A stretch of DNA of 32,666 bases from Anaerolineae bacterium (GTDB lineage Bacteria; Chloroflexota; Anaerolineae; Aggregatilineales; Aggregatilineaceae): the NCBI GenBank assembly GCA_016929355.1, contig JAFGJA010000652.1, positions 1-32,666 on the forward strand, read 5' to 3'. The position numbers and the translations under genes were made by a program. The notes below the pieces were generated by a model. It ran no database searches. It saw only the letters and a program-made list of their open reading frames with translations, and had not been told where the DNA came from. Position 1 is the stretch's first letter. Each line of letters opens with the position of its first letter. This document shows positions 6,141-24,516 of the stretch, piece after piece.

Positions 6141-6169
6141 TTGACAATCATCTGGGGCGCGGCTAGAAT
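6141..6169 (+). promoter_or_regulatory. Sigma70-type promoter TTGACA-17 nt-TAGAAT
   Basis: TTGACA at 6141-6146, TAGAAT at 6164-6169, 17 nt spacer; about 30 nt upstream of the T-box Stem I. Confidence 0.75.
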
Positions 6170-6403
6170 GTTGGCACTTAACAATTGAATGTCTGTGCCA
6201 ACAGCTATAAATGGAAGTAGTAAGTCATCATCGCAGCGAATCAGGGATAGTGCAAGCCTGATATTTATGCCCCCGATGAGCATAGCAGACTGAACTCGTC
6301 CAGGAGCTGCGCGGTTGACTGTACGATTAGCGTCAAGGTCGTATCCAGATCGCGCCGGATGCGCCCGTTATGCGTCATGAGTGGATGGCACGCCACACAA
6401 CAA

Positions 6404-6477
6404 GGGCCCATAGCTCAGTTTGGGAGAGCGCCACAATGGCATTGTGGAGGTCAAGGGTTCGAGCCCCTTTGGGTCCA
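6404..6477 (+). tRNA. tRNA-Ala(GGC)
   Basis: Full cloverleaf: acceptor GGGCCCA/TGGGTCC, D-arm GCTC/GAGC, anticodon arm CCACA-ATGGCAT-TGTGG (anticodon GGC), T-arm AAGGG-TTCGAGC-CCCTT, discriminator A. Contains G3:U70 and A32-U38. CCA not encoded. Confidence 0.95.
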
Positions 6478-6528
6478 CTCTTCGTTTTTAAGGTTACATA
6501 TTGCCATCAACCAGGGTGGTACCGCGGA

Positions 6529-6564
6529 GTCCTCTTCGTCCCTGAGACGAATGAGGGCTTTTTT
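6529..6564 (+). terminator. T-box intrinsic terminator
   Basis: GTCCTCTTCGTC-CCTGA-GACGAATGAGGGC then TTTTTT; about 12 bp with one bulge. The competing antiterminator pairs CAGGG (6512-6516) with CCCTG (6540-6544). Confidence 0.85.
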
Positions 6565-6694
6565 GTTTTTGGGCGATTTTACGTAATTCAATTGCTTTTT
6601 TCATGTTCTTTTTAGGTTGTTTTCTGTGTTTTGGTGTACAGTTTATATTAGGATGTGATGTATTGTAGAAACTGACAACGAAGGGAAACGATTG

Positions 6695-6841
6695 ATGGCT
6701 GACAAAAAACGACACGCACTCACTGATCGACTTCGGGAATTACTCGATAACCTTAAGGAAGTGCTTGGTCCACGCCAGCCTGTACCGGCTCCCATCCCGG
6801 TTCCAACCCGCGACGACCCGTATCGCCATATGCGTCGTTAG
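6695..6841 (+). CDS. Small hypothetical protein (48 aa)
   Basis: MADKKRHALTDRLRELLDNLKEVLGPRQPVPAPIPVPTRDDPYRHMRR*; GAAGGGAAACG upstream. Below the ORF-track length cutoff. Confidence 0.6.
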   Translation: MADKKRHALTDRLRELLDNLKEVLGPRQPVPAPIPVPTRDDPYRHMRR

Positions 6842-7197: not shown

Positions 7198-9996
7198 GTG
7201 AACCTATCGATGGCAGATAAATATGTGCCACAAGAAATCGAACCCCGTTGGGCAAAACACTGGGAAGATGACGGGCTGTATAATTCGGAGATTGATCCGA
7301 ATCGGGAAAAGTTCTACGCGATGACCATGCTGCCGTATCCGAGCGGCGATCTGCACATCGGGCATTGGTACGCGATGGCTCCTTCTGATGCGCGCGCGCG
7401 GTGGCTGCGCATGAAGGGCTATAACGTGCTGTTTCCGATGGGCTTCGACTCGTTTGGACTAAATGCGGAAAATGCCGCCATCAAGCGCAACATCCACCCT
7501 AAAACGTGGACCGAGAAGAACATGGAATACATGCGGCAGCAGTTGCGCACGATGGGCACGATCATCGACTGGCGGCGTGAACATGCGACCAGCCATCCCG
7601 ATTACTACAAGTGGACGCAGTGGTTTTTCTTGCAGTTCTACACGCATGGGTTGGCTTATCGCAAAATGTCAGCAGTGGATTTTTGCCCGCAGTGTAATAC
7701 CACGCTGGCCCGCGAACAGGTGTGGGGCGATGATCGTCACTGCGAGCGCTGCGGCACGCCCGTCATCAAAAAAGACCTGGAACAGTGGTTTTTCCGCACC
7801 ACCGATTACGCCGAAGAACTGCTGGATCACAGCCACATTGACTGGCCGGAGCGCGTCAAGACGATGCAAACCAATTGGATCGGACGCAGCGAAGGCGCGC
7901 ATGTGACCTTCCGTACCGAAGCCGGTGATCCGATTGAAGTCTTTACCACGCGCCCCGATACATTGTGGGGCGCAACCTTCATGGTCCTGGCCCCGGAACA
8001 TCCGTTGGTCGATCAGATCACGACGGACGAACAGCGCGCCGCCGTTGCAAACTACATCGCGGAAGCGGCCCGCAAAACCGAAATTGATCGCACGGCGGAA
8101 GGCAAAGAGAAAACCGGCGTTTTCACGGGCGGTTACGCGATCAATCCGGTCAATGATGAACGCATCCCGATCTGGATCGCGGACTACGTGCTGATCAGCT
8201 ACGGCAGTGGCGCGATCATGGCTGTGCCGTTTGGCGATCAGCGTGACTTCGAATTCGCGCGTGAATTCGGCCTGGCGATTGTGCCCGTGTTACGGCCTGC
8301 TGGACAGGATGCCGATCCGGTAGCCGACAAGATGGCAGAAGCCTACGAGGGACCGGGCATCATGATCAACAGTGGCCCGATCAATGGCATCGAACACAAC
8401 GGTGAAAAGGGCAGCAAGAGTCCCGCCGTTGCCGCCGCAATCAAGATTCTGGAAGACAAAGAAATCGGTCATGGTGCAGTCAATTACCGTTTGCGGGACT
8501 GGCTGATCAGCCGCCAGCGCTATTGGGGCGCACCGATCCCGATGGTGTACTGCGACCAATGCGGCATCGTGCCGATCCCGGAATCCGATTTGCCCGTGCT
8601 GCTGCCGGATGATGTGGACTTCATGCCGACAGGTGAAAGCCCCTTGCGCTATCACGAGGGCTTTTTGCACACGACCTGCCCCACATGCGGCGGACCAGCC
8701 ACCCGCGAAACGGATACGATGGACACCTTCATGTGTTCGTCATGGTATCAATTCCGCTACCTGAGTCCGCATTACGATGATGGCCCGTTTGATCCTGAAG
8801 AGGGCGCATACTGGCTGCCGGTAGACCAATATACGGGCGGAATCGAACACGCAACCATGCACCTGATGTATACGCGCTTCTTCACCAAAGCCATGCGCGA
8901 CTGCGGCGTCTTCGGCCCGATGGATAATGTTGCGCAAGCAATGGGCCGCGATATGACCGGGATGTATGATGAGCCGATGTTGGCGCTGTTTAACCAGGGC
9001 ATGATCCTGGGCGAGCCGCGCGACGGTGATCTGATCGTGGTGGAAGGCGCGTTTGCGGGTGAAAAATTCAACGCGACAAGTCTGAAAGTCGTTACATCAA
9101 TAGACGACATCCCCATCGGACAGCAAACCGTGACTGGCGGCGAAGTGATGCGCCGCGTCGAGACAACGCTGAACGTGCGGACGCCCGATGGACGCGACGT
9201 GGTAATTGACACCTTTGACGATACGACCTTCGACATTCCCGGTTTTGAGAATGCCAACATCAACCAGATCAAACATCATCTGGAAGTTGAGAAAATGTCC
9301 AAAACACAGGGCAATGTCGTCGCGCCGGATGAACTGGTTAATGAATACGGTGCTGATACCGTCCGCGCGTACCTGATGTTCGCCTTCCGGTGGGAGCAAG
9401 GCGGCCCCTGGGATAGTCAGGGTATTCAGGGTCCGGCGCGTTGGGTGGAAGATGTGTGGAACATCGTCATGGGTGGTGCGCCGAATGGTCCCGCCGATCC
9501 CAAAGCAGAACGGGCGCTGCGCCGCCGTGTCCACCAGACGATCCAGAAAGTATCGGATGGCATGGAAACATTCAGTTTCAATACGACGGTGGCCGAATTG
9601 ATGGCGCTGCGTAACGATCTGAAAACGGTTATCCGCGATCAGAACGTCAGCGCAACCGTTTGGAATGAAGCCATCGAAACCATGCTGACTCTGATGGCTC
9701 CTATCACCCCCTTTATCGCGGAGGAATTGTGGATCAAGACCGGGCACGAGTACAGCATCCATAACCAGCCCTGGCCCGCATTTGATCCCGAAATCGCCGC
9801 CGAAGATGAGATCACGCTGGTCGTCCAGATTAACGGCAAGGTGCGGGATCGCATCCAAGTGCCCGCCGACATCAGCGAAGAGGACGCGATCAAACTGGCG
9901 CTGGAATCGGAAGGCGCAGTGCGGCACATGGAAGGCAAAGAACCACGCAAAGTGATCTACATCAACCAGCGTGGCATGGTGAATATCGTCGTGTAA
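7198..9996 (+). CDS. leuS: Leucyl-tRNA synthetase
   Basis: 932 aa; MTMLPYPSGDLHIGHWYAM (HIGH region), KMSKTQGNV (KMSKS), editing domain TTRPDTLWGATFMVLAPEHPLV. ATG 7210 may be the true start. Confidence 0.98.
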   Translation: MNLSMADKYVPQEIEPRWAKHWEDDGLYNSEIDPNREKFYAMTMLPYPSGDLHIGHWYAMAPSDARARWLRMKGYNVLFPMGFDSFGLNAENAAIKRNIHPKTWTEKNMEYMRQQLRTMGTIIDWRREHATSHPDYYKWTQWFFLQFYTHGLAYRKMSAVDFCPQCNTTLAREQVWGDDRHCERCGTPVIKKDLEQWFFRTTDYAEELLDHSHIDWPERVKTMQTNWIGRSEGAHVTFRTEAGDPIEVFTTRPDTLWGATFMVLAPEHPLVDQITTDEQRAAVANYIAEAARKTEIDRTAEGKEKTGVFTGGYAINPVNDERIPIWIADYVLISYGSGAIMAVPFGDQRDFEFAREFGLAIVPVLRPAGQDADPVADKMAEAYEGPGIMINSGPINGIEHNGEKGSKSPAVAAAIKILEDKEIGHGAVNYRLRDWLISRQRYWGAPIPMVYCDQCGIVPIPESDLPVLLPDDVDFMPTGESPLRYHEGFLHTTCPTCGGPATRETDTMDTFMCSSWYQFRYLSPHYDDGPFDPEEGAYWLPVDQYTGGIEHATMHLMYTRFFTKAMRDCGVFGPMDNVAQAMGRDMTGMYDEPMLALFNQGMILGEPRDGDLIVVEGAFAGEKFNATSLKVVTSIDDIPIGQQTVTGGEVMRRVETTLNVRTPDGRDVVIDTFDDTTFDIPGFENANINQIKHHLEVEKMSKTQGNVVAPDELVNEYGADTVRAYLMFAFRWEQGGPWDSQGIQGPARWVEDVWNIVMGGAPNGPADPKAERALRRRVHQTIQKVSDGMETFSFNTTVAELMALRNDLKTVIRDQNVSATVWNEAIETMLTLMAPITPFIAEELWIKTGHEYSIHNQPWPAFDPEIAAEDEITLVVQINGKVRDRIQVPADISEEDAIKLALESEGAVRHMEGKEPRKVIYINQRGMVNIVV

Positions 9997-10084: not shown

Positions 10085-12949
10085 ATGGGCATACACGACC
10101 AACTCGAAGCATTTGTTGCATGGTGGCAGCAGTACTGCAAAGGTGACGAAAAAGGCGAAGCACAGATTTTTTTGGATCGCTTCTTTCAAGCCTTTGGGCA
10201 TAAAGGTGCGCTCGAAGCGGGTGGAACCTATGAGGAACGGGTGCGTCGCAAACGGCACGGACATGAAGGGATCGTGTTTGCCGATTATGTCTGGCCCGGC
10301 CATGTCCTGATCGAGATGAAAAAGCGCGGTGAAGACCTCAGCCGCCATTACGATCAGCTTGAGGACTACTGGAAAAATCTGGAACGCAAACCGCCGTATG
10401 CTCTGCTCTGTAACTTTGATGAGATTTGGATTTATAGTTTCCCCACCCAATTTTACGATCCGGTTGATTGTGTTCGCATTGAAGACTTACCCCGGCGCAC
10501 CGCCGCCTTAGAATTTCTGATTCCCGGCTCGCGCAAACCACCGGTTTTCCAGAACAATCTGGTTGAAGTGACAAAAAATGCCGCGCACAGCTTATCCGAA
10601 GTGTTCAAGTCGTTGGCACGGCGCGATAATGACCGCGCGGTGATCCAGCGTTTTATTTTGCAGTGTATGCTGGCTTTGTTCGCCGAGGATATTGGCCTGC
10701 TGCCGGATTCCACCTTCACCCGCATTATCGAAGAAGCGATGGACGGTGGTGAAGATGCTCACGACTTGATCGCGCTGCTATTCACCATGATGAATTCGCA
10801 TGTTCCCAAAACGGTTGGGCGTTTTAGAGGAGTCGCATATTTTGACGGCGGCTTATTCAGTGAAGTCAACCCGGTACAGTTATATCCTGAAGATTTGCGG
10901 CTGCTGCGCGATGCCTCCCGCGAAAATTGGTCCCAGATTCGGCCTGCAATCTTCGGCACGATCTTTGAAGACAGTTTGGACAAAGACCAGCGTCACCAGA
11001 TCGGCGCGCACTTCACCAGCGAGCAAGACATCAAACGCATTGTTGACCCGGTGATCGTCGAACCCTGGGATAAACGGATTGAAGCGGCGCAGACAGTCGA
11101 CGAGCTACGCGCCCTGCACACCGAACTCTGCGCCTATCAGGTGCTTGATCCGGCGTGCGGATCGGGGAATTTCCTGTACATTGCATACCGCGAAATGAAA
11201 AAACTCGAACGCCGTATTTTAGATCGCAGCGCAGCGCTCACCGGGGAACCACCTCAGCCTGAAACGTTTGTCACCGCGCAGCAATTTTGGGGCATTGACA
11301 TCAACTCGTTTGCGGTAGAACTTGCCAAAGTGACGCTGATGATCGGCAAAAAGTTGGCCGTTGACGAACTGCATCTCAGTGAGGCTCCCCTGCCACTGGA
11401 TAATTTAGACGACAACATGCAATGCCGGGATGCGCTTTTGACCGAGTGGCCGACATTCGACGCTTGCATCGGCAACCCGCCGTATCAAACGGCTAAAGAA
11501 TCGCGGGATATTGATAGTATTGCGCATCTGAGTCGTGTACGTGAAGCATTTCCTGATGTGCCCGGCAACGCCGACTACTGCGTATACTGGTTTCACAAAG
11601 CCCACCAATTGATGCAGCCGGGCGCACGCGCCGGGTTAGTCGGGACGAATACCATCCGGCAAAATTATTCGCGGATCGGGGGACTGGATTACATCGTTGC
11701 TAACGATGGACATATTTTTGATGCCGTATCTTCCATGCCCTGGTCGGGACAGGCTGTTGTTCATATCTCGGTTGCATGTTGGAGCAAGGGCAAACCACCA
11801 ATTAGTCCAGCTCGCCTGCGTTTATATGATGAAACTGGCGAAACTGAAGAAGATCGTTGGGTAATAATTAAACTACCTTTCATTAACAGTGCCTTATCAG
11901 AAAAAATTGATGTTAGCACAACTTCGATTTTGACCGTAAACACTGATTCTAAACGCACGTTTCAGGGGCAAACACCGGGGCATAAAGGCTTTGTACTGAG
12001 TCCAAATGAAGCATCTGAAATGGTGCGAAAAGATGCAGCCACCCAAGAGGTTATTTTTCCCTACCTTATCGGACGAGATTTGGTGGCGAAACCAGGAGGA
12101 AGTCCCAGCCGGTTTGTTATTGATTTTGGTGAACAAGATGTGTTAGAAGCTCAAAAATACCCTGCTGCCTATAAACGTATTGAACAGCAAGTATTACCCG
12201 ATAGAAAAGCTAAAGCGCAAGACGAAATCAAAAAGAATAATAAACTACTGGCACAAAACCCTGACACGAGAATCAATACTGATCATCAGGATGCACTTAA
12301 ACGCTGGTGGCTTCACTATCGAGGACGCCCCGAACGCCGTGAAGCAACTCAAGGCATGAAACGTTATATTGCTTGTTCGCGTGTAACCAAGCGCCCCATT
12401 TTTGAACTTATCTCGGCATCGATCTGTCCAAGTGACGCCTTGCAAACATTTGCTTTTGACGATGATTACAGTTTTGGGATTCTGCAATCAGATTGTCATT
12501 GGCAGTGGTTTTTAGTCAAAGGTGCAACTTTAAAAGCTGATCCGGCTTATACCCCACATAGCGTTTTCGACACCTTCCCCTGGCCGCAGAATCCGACGCC
12601 GGAACAGGTCAAAGCAATAGCTGACGCTGCACGCAACCTGCACGAATTCCGCCGCAAGCGCATGAGCAACAGCGTCAAGATCACGCTGCGTGATATGTAC
12701 CGCTCGTTGGAACTGCCCGGCAAAAATCCGCTCCGCGATCTGCATGATATTCTCGATGCGGCAGTGCTGGCGGCGTATGGCTTCGATCCTGAGGGGGAGG
12801 TGCTGGCGCAATTGCTGGCGCTCAATCTCCAGGTTGCCGCACGGATTGAAGCCGGGGAGTCGGTGACACCGCCCGGTATTCCGCCGGGATACCCGAATCC
12901 TGCCGATTTGATCAGCGCGGGCTGCATACCCGCCCCTGAGATTATCTGA
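10085..12949 (+). CDS. MmeI-like (type IIL) fused restriction endonuclease/N6-adenine methyltransferase/specificity protein
   Basis: N-terminal nuclease-like ADYVWPGHVLIEMKKRGEDLSRHYDQLEDYW (D...ExK), SAM motif DPACGSGNFLYIAYREM, catalytic IGNPPYQTAK, then FPYLIGRDLV and a C-terminal TRD-like region. Confidence 0.88.
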   Translation: MGIHDQLEAFVAWWQQYCKGDEKGEAQIFLDRFFQAFGHKGALEAGGTYEERVRRKRHGHEGIVFADYVWPGHVLIEMKKRGEDLSRHYDQLEDYWKNLERKPPYALLCNFDEIWIYSFPTQFYDPVDCVRIEDLPRRTAALEFLIPGSRKPPVFQNNLVEVTKNAAHSLSEVFKSLARRDNDRAVIQRFILQCMLALFAEDIGLLPDSTFTRIIEEAMDGGEDAHDLIALLFTMMNSHVPKTVGRFRGVAYFDGGLFSEVNPVQLYPEDLRLLRDASRENWSQIRPAIFGTIFEDSLDKDQRHQIGAHFTSEQDIKRIVDPVIVEPWDKRIEAAQTVDELRALHTELCAYQVLDPACGSGNFLYIAYREMKKLERRILDRSAALTGEPPQPETFVTAQQFWGIDINSFAVELAKVTLMIGKKLAVDELHLSEAPLPLDNLDDNMQCRDALLTEWPTFDACIGNPPYQTAKESRDIDSIAHLSRVREAFPDVPGNADYCVYWFHKAHQLMQPGARAGLVGTNTIRQNYSRIGGLDYIVANDGHIFDAVSSMPWSGQAVVHISVACWSKGKPPISPARLRLYDETGETEEDRWVIIKLPFINSALSEKIDVSTTSILTVNTDSKRTFQGQTPGHKGFVLSPNEASEMVRKDAATQEVIFPYLIGRDLVAKPGGSPSRFVIDFGEQDVLEAQKYPAAYKRIEQQVLPDRKAKAQDEIKKNNKLLAQNPDTRINTDHQDALKRWWLHYRGRPERREATQGMKRYIACSRVTKRPIFELISASICPSDALQTFAFDDDYSFGILQSDCHWQWFLVKGATLKADPAYTPHSVFDTFPWPQNPTPEQVKAIADAARNLHEFRRKRMSNSVKITLRDMYRSLELPGKNPLRDLHDILDAAVLAAYGFDPEGEVLAQLLALNLQVAARIEAGESVTPPGIPPGYPNPADLISAGCIPAPEII

Positions 12950-24065: not shown

Positions 24066-24516
24066 TTGACCCGATAACGGCCTCTCGCCCCTAAATGGTT
24101 ATCTCCGGCCTTCAGCCTTCCCTCTCCTTCTGATGCTGCCCTTCGCCCTGTAAGCGGCTTTCATCGCTCGCCCTGGATGGTCGTTACGCCATCGACTACT
24201 TCGACCTCGGCTGACTTCTGCGTCAAAAAAAACAAAAACGCAGACCTCCCCGGATAAGGTACGATAACTTTCCCCTAAGCCCTGCCATGTCTACATCGAG
24301 CTGCTTTGGTCCTTTTCGGGCGTCACTGTCTGTTGCCAACTTACCCCACGCTCCATGCCTGCTACGCGATTCTTGTTCATCAGGTCCAGGGTTTGCCTCC
24401 GGCTTCCTCTCCACGTCCGCTCGCGCGCAACGCAGTTGCCTTCGGCCAGTAGTTCGTCGGACCAACGTCCACAGCGATCTTCCACCGCCTGGTTATCGCC
24501 CATGCCGGGCGTACAC
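23821..24516 (-). mobile_element. Group II intron remnant (class C-like), 3' truncated
   Basis: 5' end GTGTACGCCCGGCATGGGCG, internal GAGGAAGCCGGAGGCAAACCCTGGACCTGATGAACAAGAATCGC; RT fragment; no recognisable domain V downstream. Confidence 0.78.

Follow-up and report, generated by a model that had tools for sequence, protein, structure and literature searches.

In the thrU-tyrU-glyT-thrT-tufB operon of E. coli, tRNAs and an mRNA are transcribed from one promoter and separated by processing, and the tRNAs lie outside any regulatory RNA structure. The other described system that comes close to the locus reported here is the transcriptional T-box of the leuS class (RF00230), which consists of Stem I with its specifier, Stem II, a Stem IIA/B region, an RRRxG-Stem III-AA element, a UGGN bulge and a terminator in front of the matching synthetase gene. 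Two published accounts define the discriminator of a T-box as 5'-RRRxG-Stem III-AA-3', with the antiterminator coming after it (PMC7583486; PMC7778990). Insertions occur in every T-box domain, with their structure and function unexplained, and insertions into Stem III are found in translational T-boxes; the passages on insertions in the same account mention no tRNA among them (PMC7583486). The leader described below shares the leuS-class elements listed above, the terminator being a putative one. It differs in that its Stem III loop holds a complete tRNA gene and in that its score lies under the Rfam cut-off. In contrast to the insertions treated in those passages, its insert is an identified, conserved, single-copy tRNA.

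The locus lies in a stretch of 32,666 nucleotides of an Anaerolineae bacterium (contig JAFGJA010000652.1 of assembly GCA_016929355.1), referred to here as the window; positions are those of its forward strand unless marked otherwise. The best sigma-70-like site of the region found by a promoter scan is TTGACA-17-TAGAAT at 6141-6169, which agrees with the consensus at 11 of 12 positions, is kept in relatives of the same family and the same order, and had been read as the promoter of the leader in a preliminary description made from the letters of the DNA. RF00230 matches from Stem I to the antiterminator (6198-6546; E=1.2e-16, 76.9 bits), covering the model from its first to its last position (1-219); the tRNA falls within an insert of 104 nt in Stem III. 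The T-box landmarks of the preliminary description are therefore real, and the part of the leader upstream of the tRNA, for which a covariance-model check had been proposed, scores as a T-box. Because 76.9 bits is less than the RF00230 gathering score of 93, a default Rfam scan of the window reports no T-box, and the leader was found through an E-value threshold; a leader from Bacillota (L040), its tRNA included, reaches 133 bits against the same model.

The specifier codon at 6295-6297 is CUC, for leucine, and CUC recurs in 77 of the 80 related leaders compared; of the three exceptions, one is a leader that is cut short. The T-box sequence AGGGTGGTACCGCG (6513-6526) carries a UGGU bulge at 6517-6520, as judged from the sequence and the alignment to RF00230, and UGGU is present in nearly all of the 80 leaders. 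An antiterminator and a competing terminator hairpin with its U-tract (about 6531-6564) can be made out both in the sequence and in the alignment to the family; a simple terminator scan did not list the terminator. The first large gene 3' of the T-box is leuS, encoding leucine--tRNA ligase (7198-9996; Pfam LeuRS editing domain; TIGR00396, 923 bits), so the codon agrees with the amino acid of the downstream synthetase and the leucine specificity previously proposed from CUC holds. A tRNA search of the window genome returned 35 genes, including one tRNA-Ala(GGC) and one tRNA-Ala(CGC). The genome has a single tRNA-Leu(GAG), in L189, with discriminator base A, which fits both the CUC specifier and the UGGU bulge.

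Between the T-box and leuS there is a short open reading frame of 48 amino acids, MADKKRHALTDRLRELLDNLKEVLGPRQPVPAPIPVPTRDDPYRHMRR (6695-6841, forward strand). By tblastn it is conserved at this position across much of the family and order, also in relatives that have no T-box, and no family in Pfam or NCBIfam matched it; it is possibly an unannotated small protein or a leuS leader peptide. Elsewhere in the window, an MmeI-like restriction-modification protein is encoded directly 3' of leuS (10085-12949, forward strand), and a group II intron domain (RF02001, 108.8 bits) matches at 24260-24430 on the reverse strand.

The embedded tRNA-Ala(GGC) occupies 6404-6477 (RF00005, 61.4 bits), and ARAGORN and Rfam place it there independently, with the 3' end at 6477/8. 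The cloverleaf and the GGC anticodon are recovered by both programs, and the alanine identity pair G3:U70 can be read from the acceptor stem GGGCCCA/TGGGTCC, all of which upholds the complete alanine tRNA of the preliminary description. CCA is not encoded in the tRNA of the window; by a simple test it is encoded in 47 of the 80 embedded tRNAs, and the base 5' of the tRNA is U in 52 of the 80 leaders. At 6370-6403, just 5' of the tRNA, where the preliminary description had considered a separate promoter, the promoter scan found no promoter-like site. In three further loci (L051, L096 and L102) the embedded tRNA-Ala(GGC) is preceded on the same strand, at a distance of about 210 nt, by a tRNA-Ala(CGC), and there the leader may be flanked by two alanine tRNAs within one transcript. 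In L151, L134, L149, L152, L154 and L051 the embedded tRNA is followed, before the 3' arm of Stem III, by a second GC-rich hairpin that may assist 3' processing.

Around this tRNA the elements of the discriminator are found in their published order. GAGTG (6379-6383), an instance of the RRRxG motif that also occurs in relatives, precedes the 5' arm GATGGCA (6384-6390) of Stem III, and the 3' arm TGCCATC (6502-6508) precedes AA (6509-6510), giving GAGTG-GATGGCA-(13 nt)-tRNA-(24 nt)-TGCCATC-AA-CC-AGGGTGGTACCGCG. This order places the tRNA in the apical loop of a normal Stem III. The preliminary description was right to put the tRNA between the decoding module and the antiterminator and wrong to put it in the place of Stem III. 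Since spacers of 13 and 24 nt set it off from the tRNA, Stem III does not extend the acceptor stem directly.

The pairing of the two arms was examined in 77 related leaders from several phyla, aligned by their flanking motifs alone and blind to pairing. At the first six positions of Stem III, 80% of cells pair; sliding the 3' arm lowers this to 36-48%. Five or six standard pair types occur at each of positions 2-6. A stricter test, which asks for five or more contiguous pairs, is passed by 62 of 80 leaders and failed by the remaining 18. After the 3' arms are shuffled between leaders, which removes their relatedness only in part, 15.7 leaders pass on average and 28 at most. Outside the family of the window 46 of 64 leaders pass, against 9.5 after shuffling (maximum 17). 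Thermodynamic (minimum-free-energy) folding of 6360-6535 alone returned neither the cloverleaf nor Stem III, so the structure of Stem III and its tRNA rests on comparison. Single leaders vary this arrangement. In L203 (G023), CCCGTGT 3' of the tRNA can pair with ACACGGG, and because the latter takes in the first three bases of the tRNA, acceptor stem and Stem III may be mutually exclusive there. In L077, L114 and L123, from bins labelled Coprothermobacterota and Caldisericota, the Stem I region 5' of CUC is so short that the distal loop would not fit, yet the embedded tRNA is kept.

The preliminary description had proposed a search of related genomes, and of 17 further genomes sampled from the family, 15 have a match spanning the leader. 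A wider scan, with one genome representing each GTDB species, looked for a tRNA T-arm at 16-76 nt 5' of the T-box word, with the type of tRNA left unspecified. Among the matches listed, at least about 80 are real cases as judged by ARAGORN on the fetched loci; all of these tRNAs are tRNA-Ala(GGC), and leuS lies behind nearly all of them. The carriers among these matches include Thermomicrobia, Ktedonobacteria, Anaerolineae/Caldilineales, Syntrophomonas, Thermosyntropha, Desulfofundulus, Symbiobacterium and Thermaerobacter, as well as single bins, which may be misassigned, labelled Coprothermobacterota, Caldisericota, Armatimonadota, Actinomycetota and others. The arrangement thus spans Chloroflexota, where it was found in 43 of 301 sampled genomes after removal of one false, non-tRNA match (G305), and Bacillota, where the class to which G067 (Desulfofundulus) belongs gave matches in 33 of 113 genomes, each with an alanine-type 3' end. 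In a tree of LeuS, most Bacillota carriers cluster together, and so do most carriers from Chloroflexota/Thermomicrobia. This pattern would fit an old arrangement followed by many losses; an old transfer of the leader could be an alternative. Some matches of the scan were set aside: tRNAs for arginine (L107), serine (L126) and glutamine (L137 and L141) near a T-box-like word, and an alanine match in a Rokubacteria bin (L053), have no upstream T-box and were judged to be chance.

How many copies of this tRNA do the carriers possess? A tRNA-Ala(GGC) pattern was run over 49 genomes, with a match in 46 carriers. In 45 of these 46 no tRNA-Ala(GGC) other than the embedded one turned up, a number that refers to the copies found, as the genomes are mostly drafts; the exception, G081, has a second tRNA-Ala(GGC) confirmed by ARAGORN. 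Second matches of the pattern in G062 and G030 do not look tRNA-like, and second tRNA-Ala hits checked in G002, G008 and G013 have the anticodon CGC rather than GGC. Being the only isoacceptor of its kind found in nearly all carriers, the embedded tRNA-Ala(GGC) is very probably expressed and matured.

Within the order of the window the two elements also occur apart. T-box and tRNA stand together in families f1, f6 and f8 and in parts of f4 and f7. In family f3, the T-box 5' of leuS in two loci (L217 and L205) has a Stem III of the ordinary small kind and no tRNA. Genomes of f3 possess tRNA-Ala(GGC) as a free-standing gene that has its own promoter-like and terminator-like sequences, and one of these tRNAs is identical to that of the window. 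G021 and G025 have the tRNA upstream of leuS without a T-box, having lost the T-box while retaining the tRNA. In other genomes of the order, neither T-box nor tRNA adjoins leuS. The arrangements in L217 and L205 and in G021 and G025 imply that switch and tRNA can each do without the other, a separability that argues for a shared-transcript arrangement over an obligate regulatory role.

We read the locus as a leucine-specific transcriptional T-box of leuS whose Stem III loop houses a tRNA-Ala(GGC), and in which the tRNA would be made constitutively, leuS would be gated by tRNA-Leu and Stem III would hold the leader together; we give this reading a probability of roughly 0.78. RNA polymerase would start from the promoter at 6141-6169 and would always pass the tRNA before reaching the decision point. 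Because the tRNA precedes the terminator, tRNA-Ala would be transcribed at every initiation, whatever the outcome for leuS; it may also delay the termination decision, as the preliminary description proposed. RNase P and 3' processing enzymes would cut it out of the transcript. Uncharged tRNA-Leu(GAG) would read CUC and pair its ACCA end with UGGU, upon which the polymerase would enter leuS, and the charging of tRNA-Leu would gate leuS only. Stem III below the tRNA is predicted to keep the 5' sensor beside the 3' antiterminator before excision and possibly after it. The preliminary description had expected processing to cut the sensor away from the antiterminator; the cuts may well be made, but with a covarying helix enclosing the tRNA they need not part the two. 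Pairing of a pre-tRNA 5' leader with the 3' RCCA is reported to hinder RNase P (PMC9433436). That excision divides the T-box into two cooperating RNAs, held by Stem III and by the bound tRNA-Leu, is an idea we put forward only tentatively; if true, the maturation of one tRNA would be physically coupled to the sensing of another on a single transcript.

Processing could also be a part of the switch itself, such that removal of tRNA-Ala by RNase P/Z, or its timing, would alter antitermination or the fate of the mRNA. Then leuS would also sense tRNA processing capacity, through a two-piece riboswitch held by Stem III. That compensatory changes maintain Stem III even with its loop taken up by the tRNA would suit such a role, as would the position of the tRNA, in every case, between sensor and decision point. 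However, every T-box needs Stem III for reasons of its own and the related leaders L217 and L205 work in the same position without a tRNA, and we regard this role of processing as unlikely. Those who would instead see the tRNA as an independent gene with its own promoter, caught by chance within a degenerate or dispensable T-box, could point to the free copies with their own promoter in f3 and to G021 and G025, where the T-box went and the tRNA stayed before leuS. Such an explanation is improbable for the window, which has no promoter-like site before the tRNA; the specifier, UGGU and the Stem III arms are kept by sequence or covariation, and matches of the size of the leader recur in 15 of 17 family members.

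A further thought is that the embedded tRNA-Ala acts in cis as ligand or competitor, its ACCA end pairing with the UGGU bulge in the leader that contains it. The discriminator base A would permit this, as would the CCA that the simple test found encoded in 47 of the 80 tRNAs, but the anticodon GGC mismatches CUC, as the preliminary description had correctly argued in denying that the tRNA is the cognate ligand, and in the window the tRNA has no encoded CCA and a 3' end that is not free until processed; a role in cis is accordingly very improbable. Finally, the window comes from a draft genome in 695 contigs that is 75% complete, which could raise the suspicion of a misassembly or of a tRNA gene inserted once by chance. 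The at least about 80 further loci in unrelated assemblies, the many families of the phylum with the arrangement and its presence in 33 of 113 genomes of one Bacillota class exclude chance and assembly artefact.

The literature searched, a partial coverage that included the T-box database, a review and a 2008 survey, yielded no account of a T-box with a tRNA gene within it. As far as found, then, the leader is a true T-box with a previously undescribed internal domain, and leaders of this kind can be missed by default Rfam cut-offs. The locus makes it testable whether a T-box can function as a two-piece RNA and how RNase P acts on a tRNA that is closed off by an outer helix, and it raises the question of why leuS and tRNA-Ala(GGC) remain linked. 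Here a complete tRNA gene forms an internal domain of a natural riboswitch, an arrangement that many lineages in two or more phyla have kept, always with one isoacceptor, and in which one promoter would give both a constitutive tRNA and a regulated mRNA.
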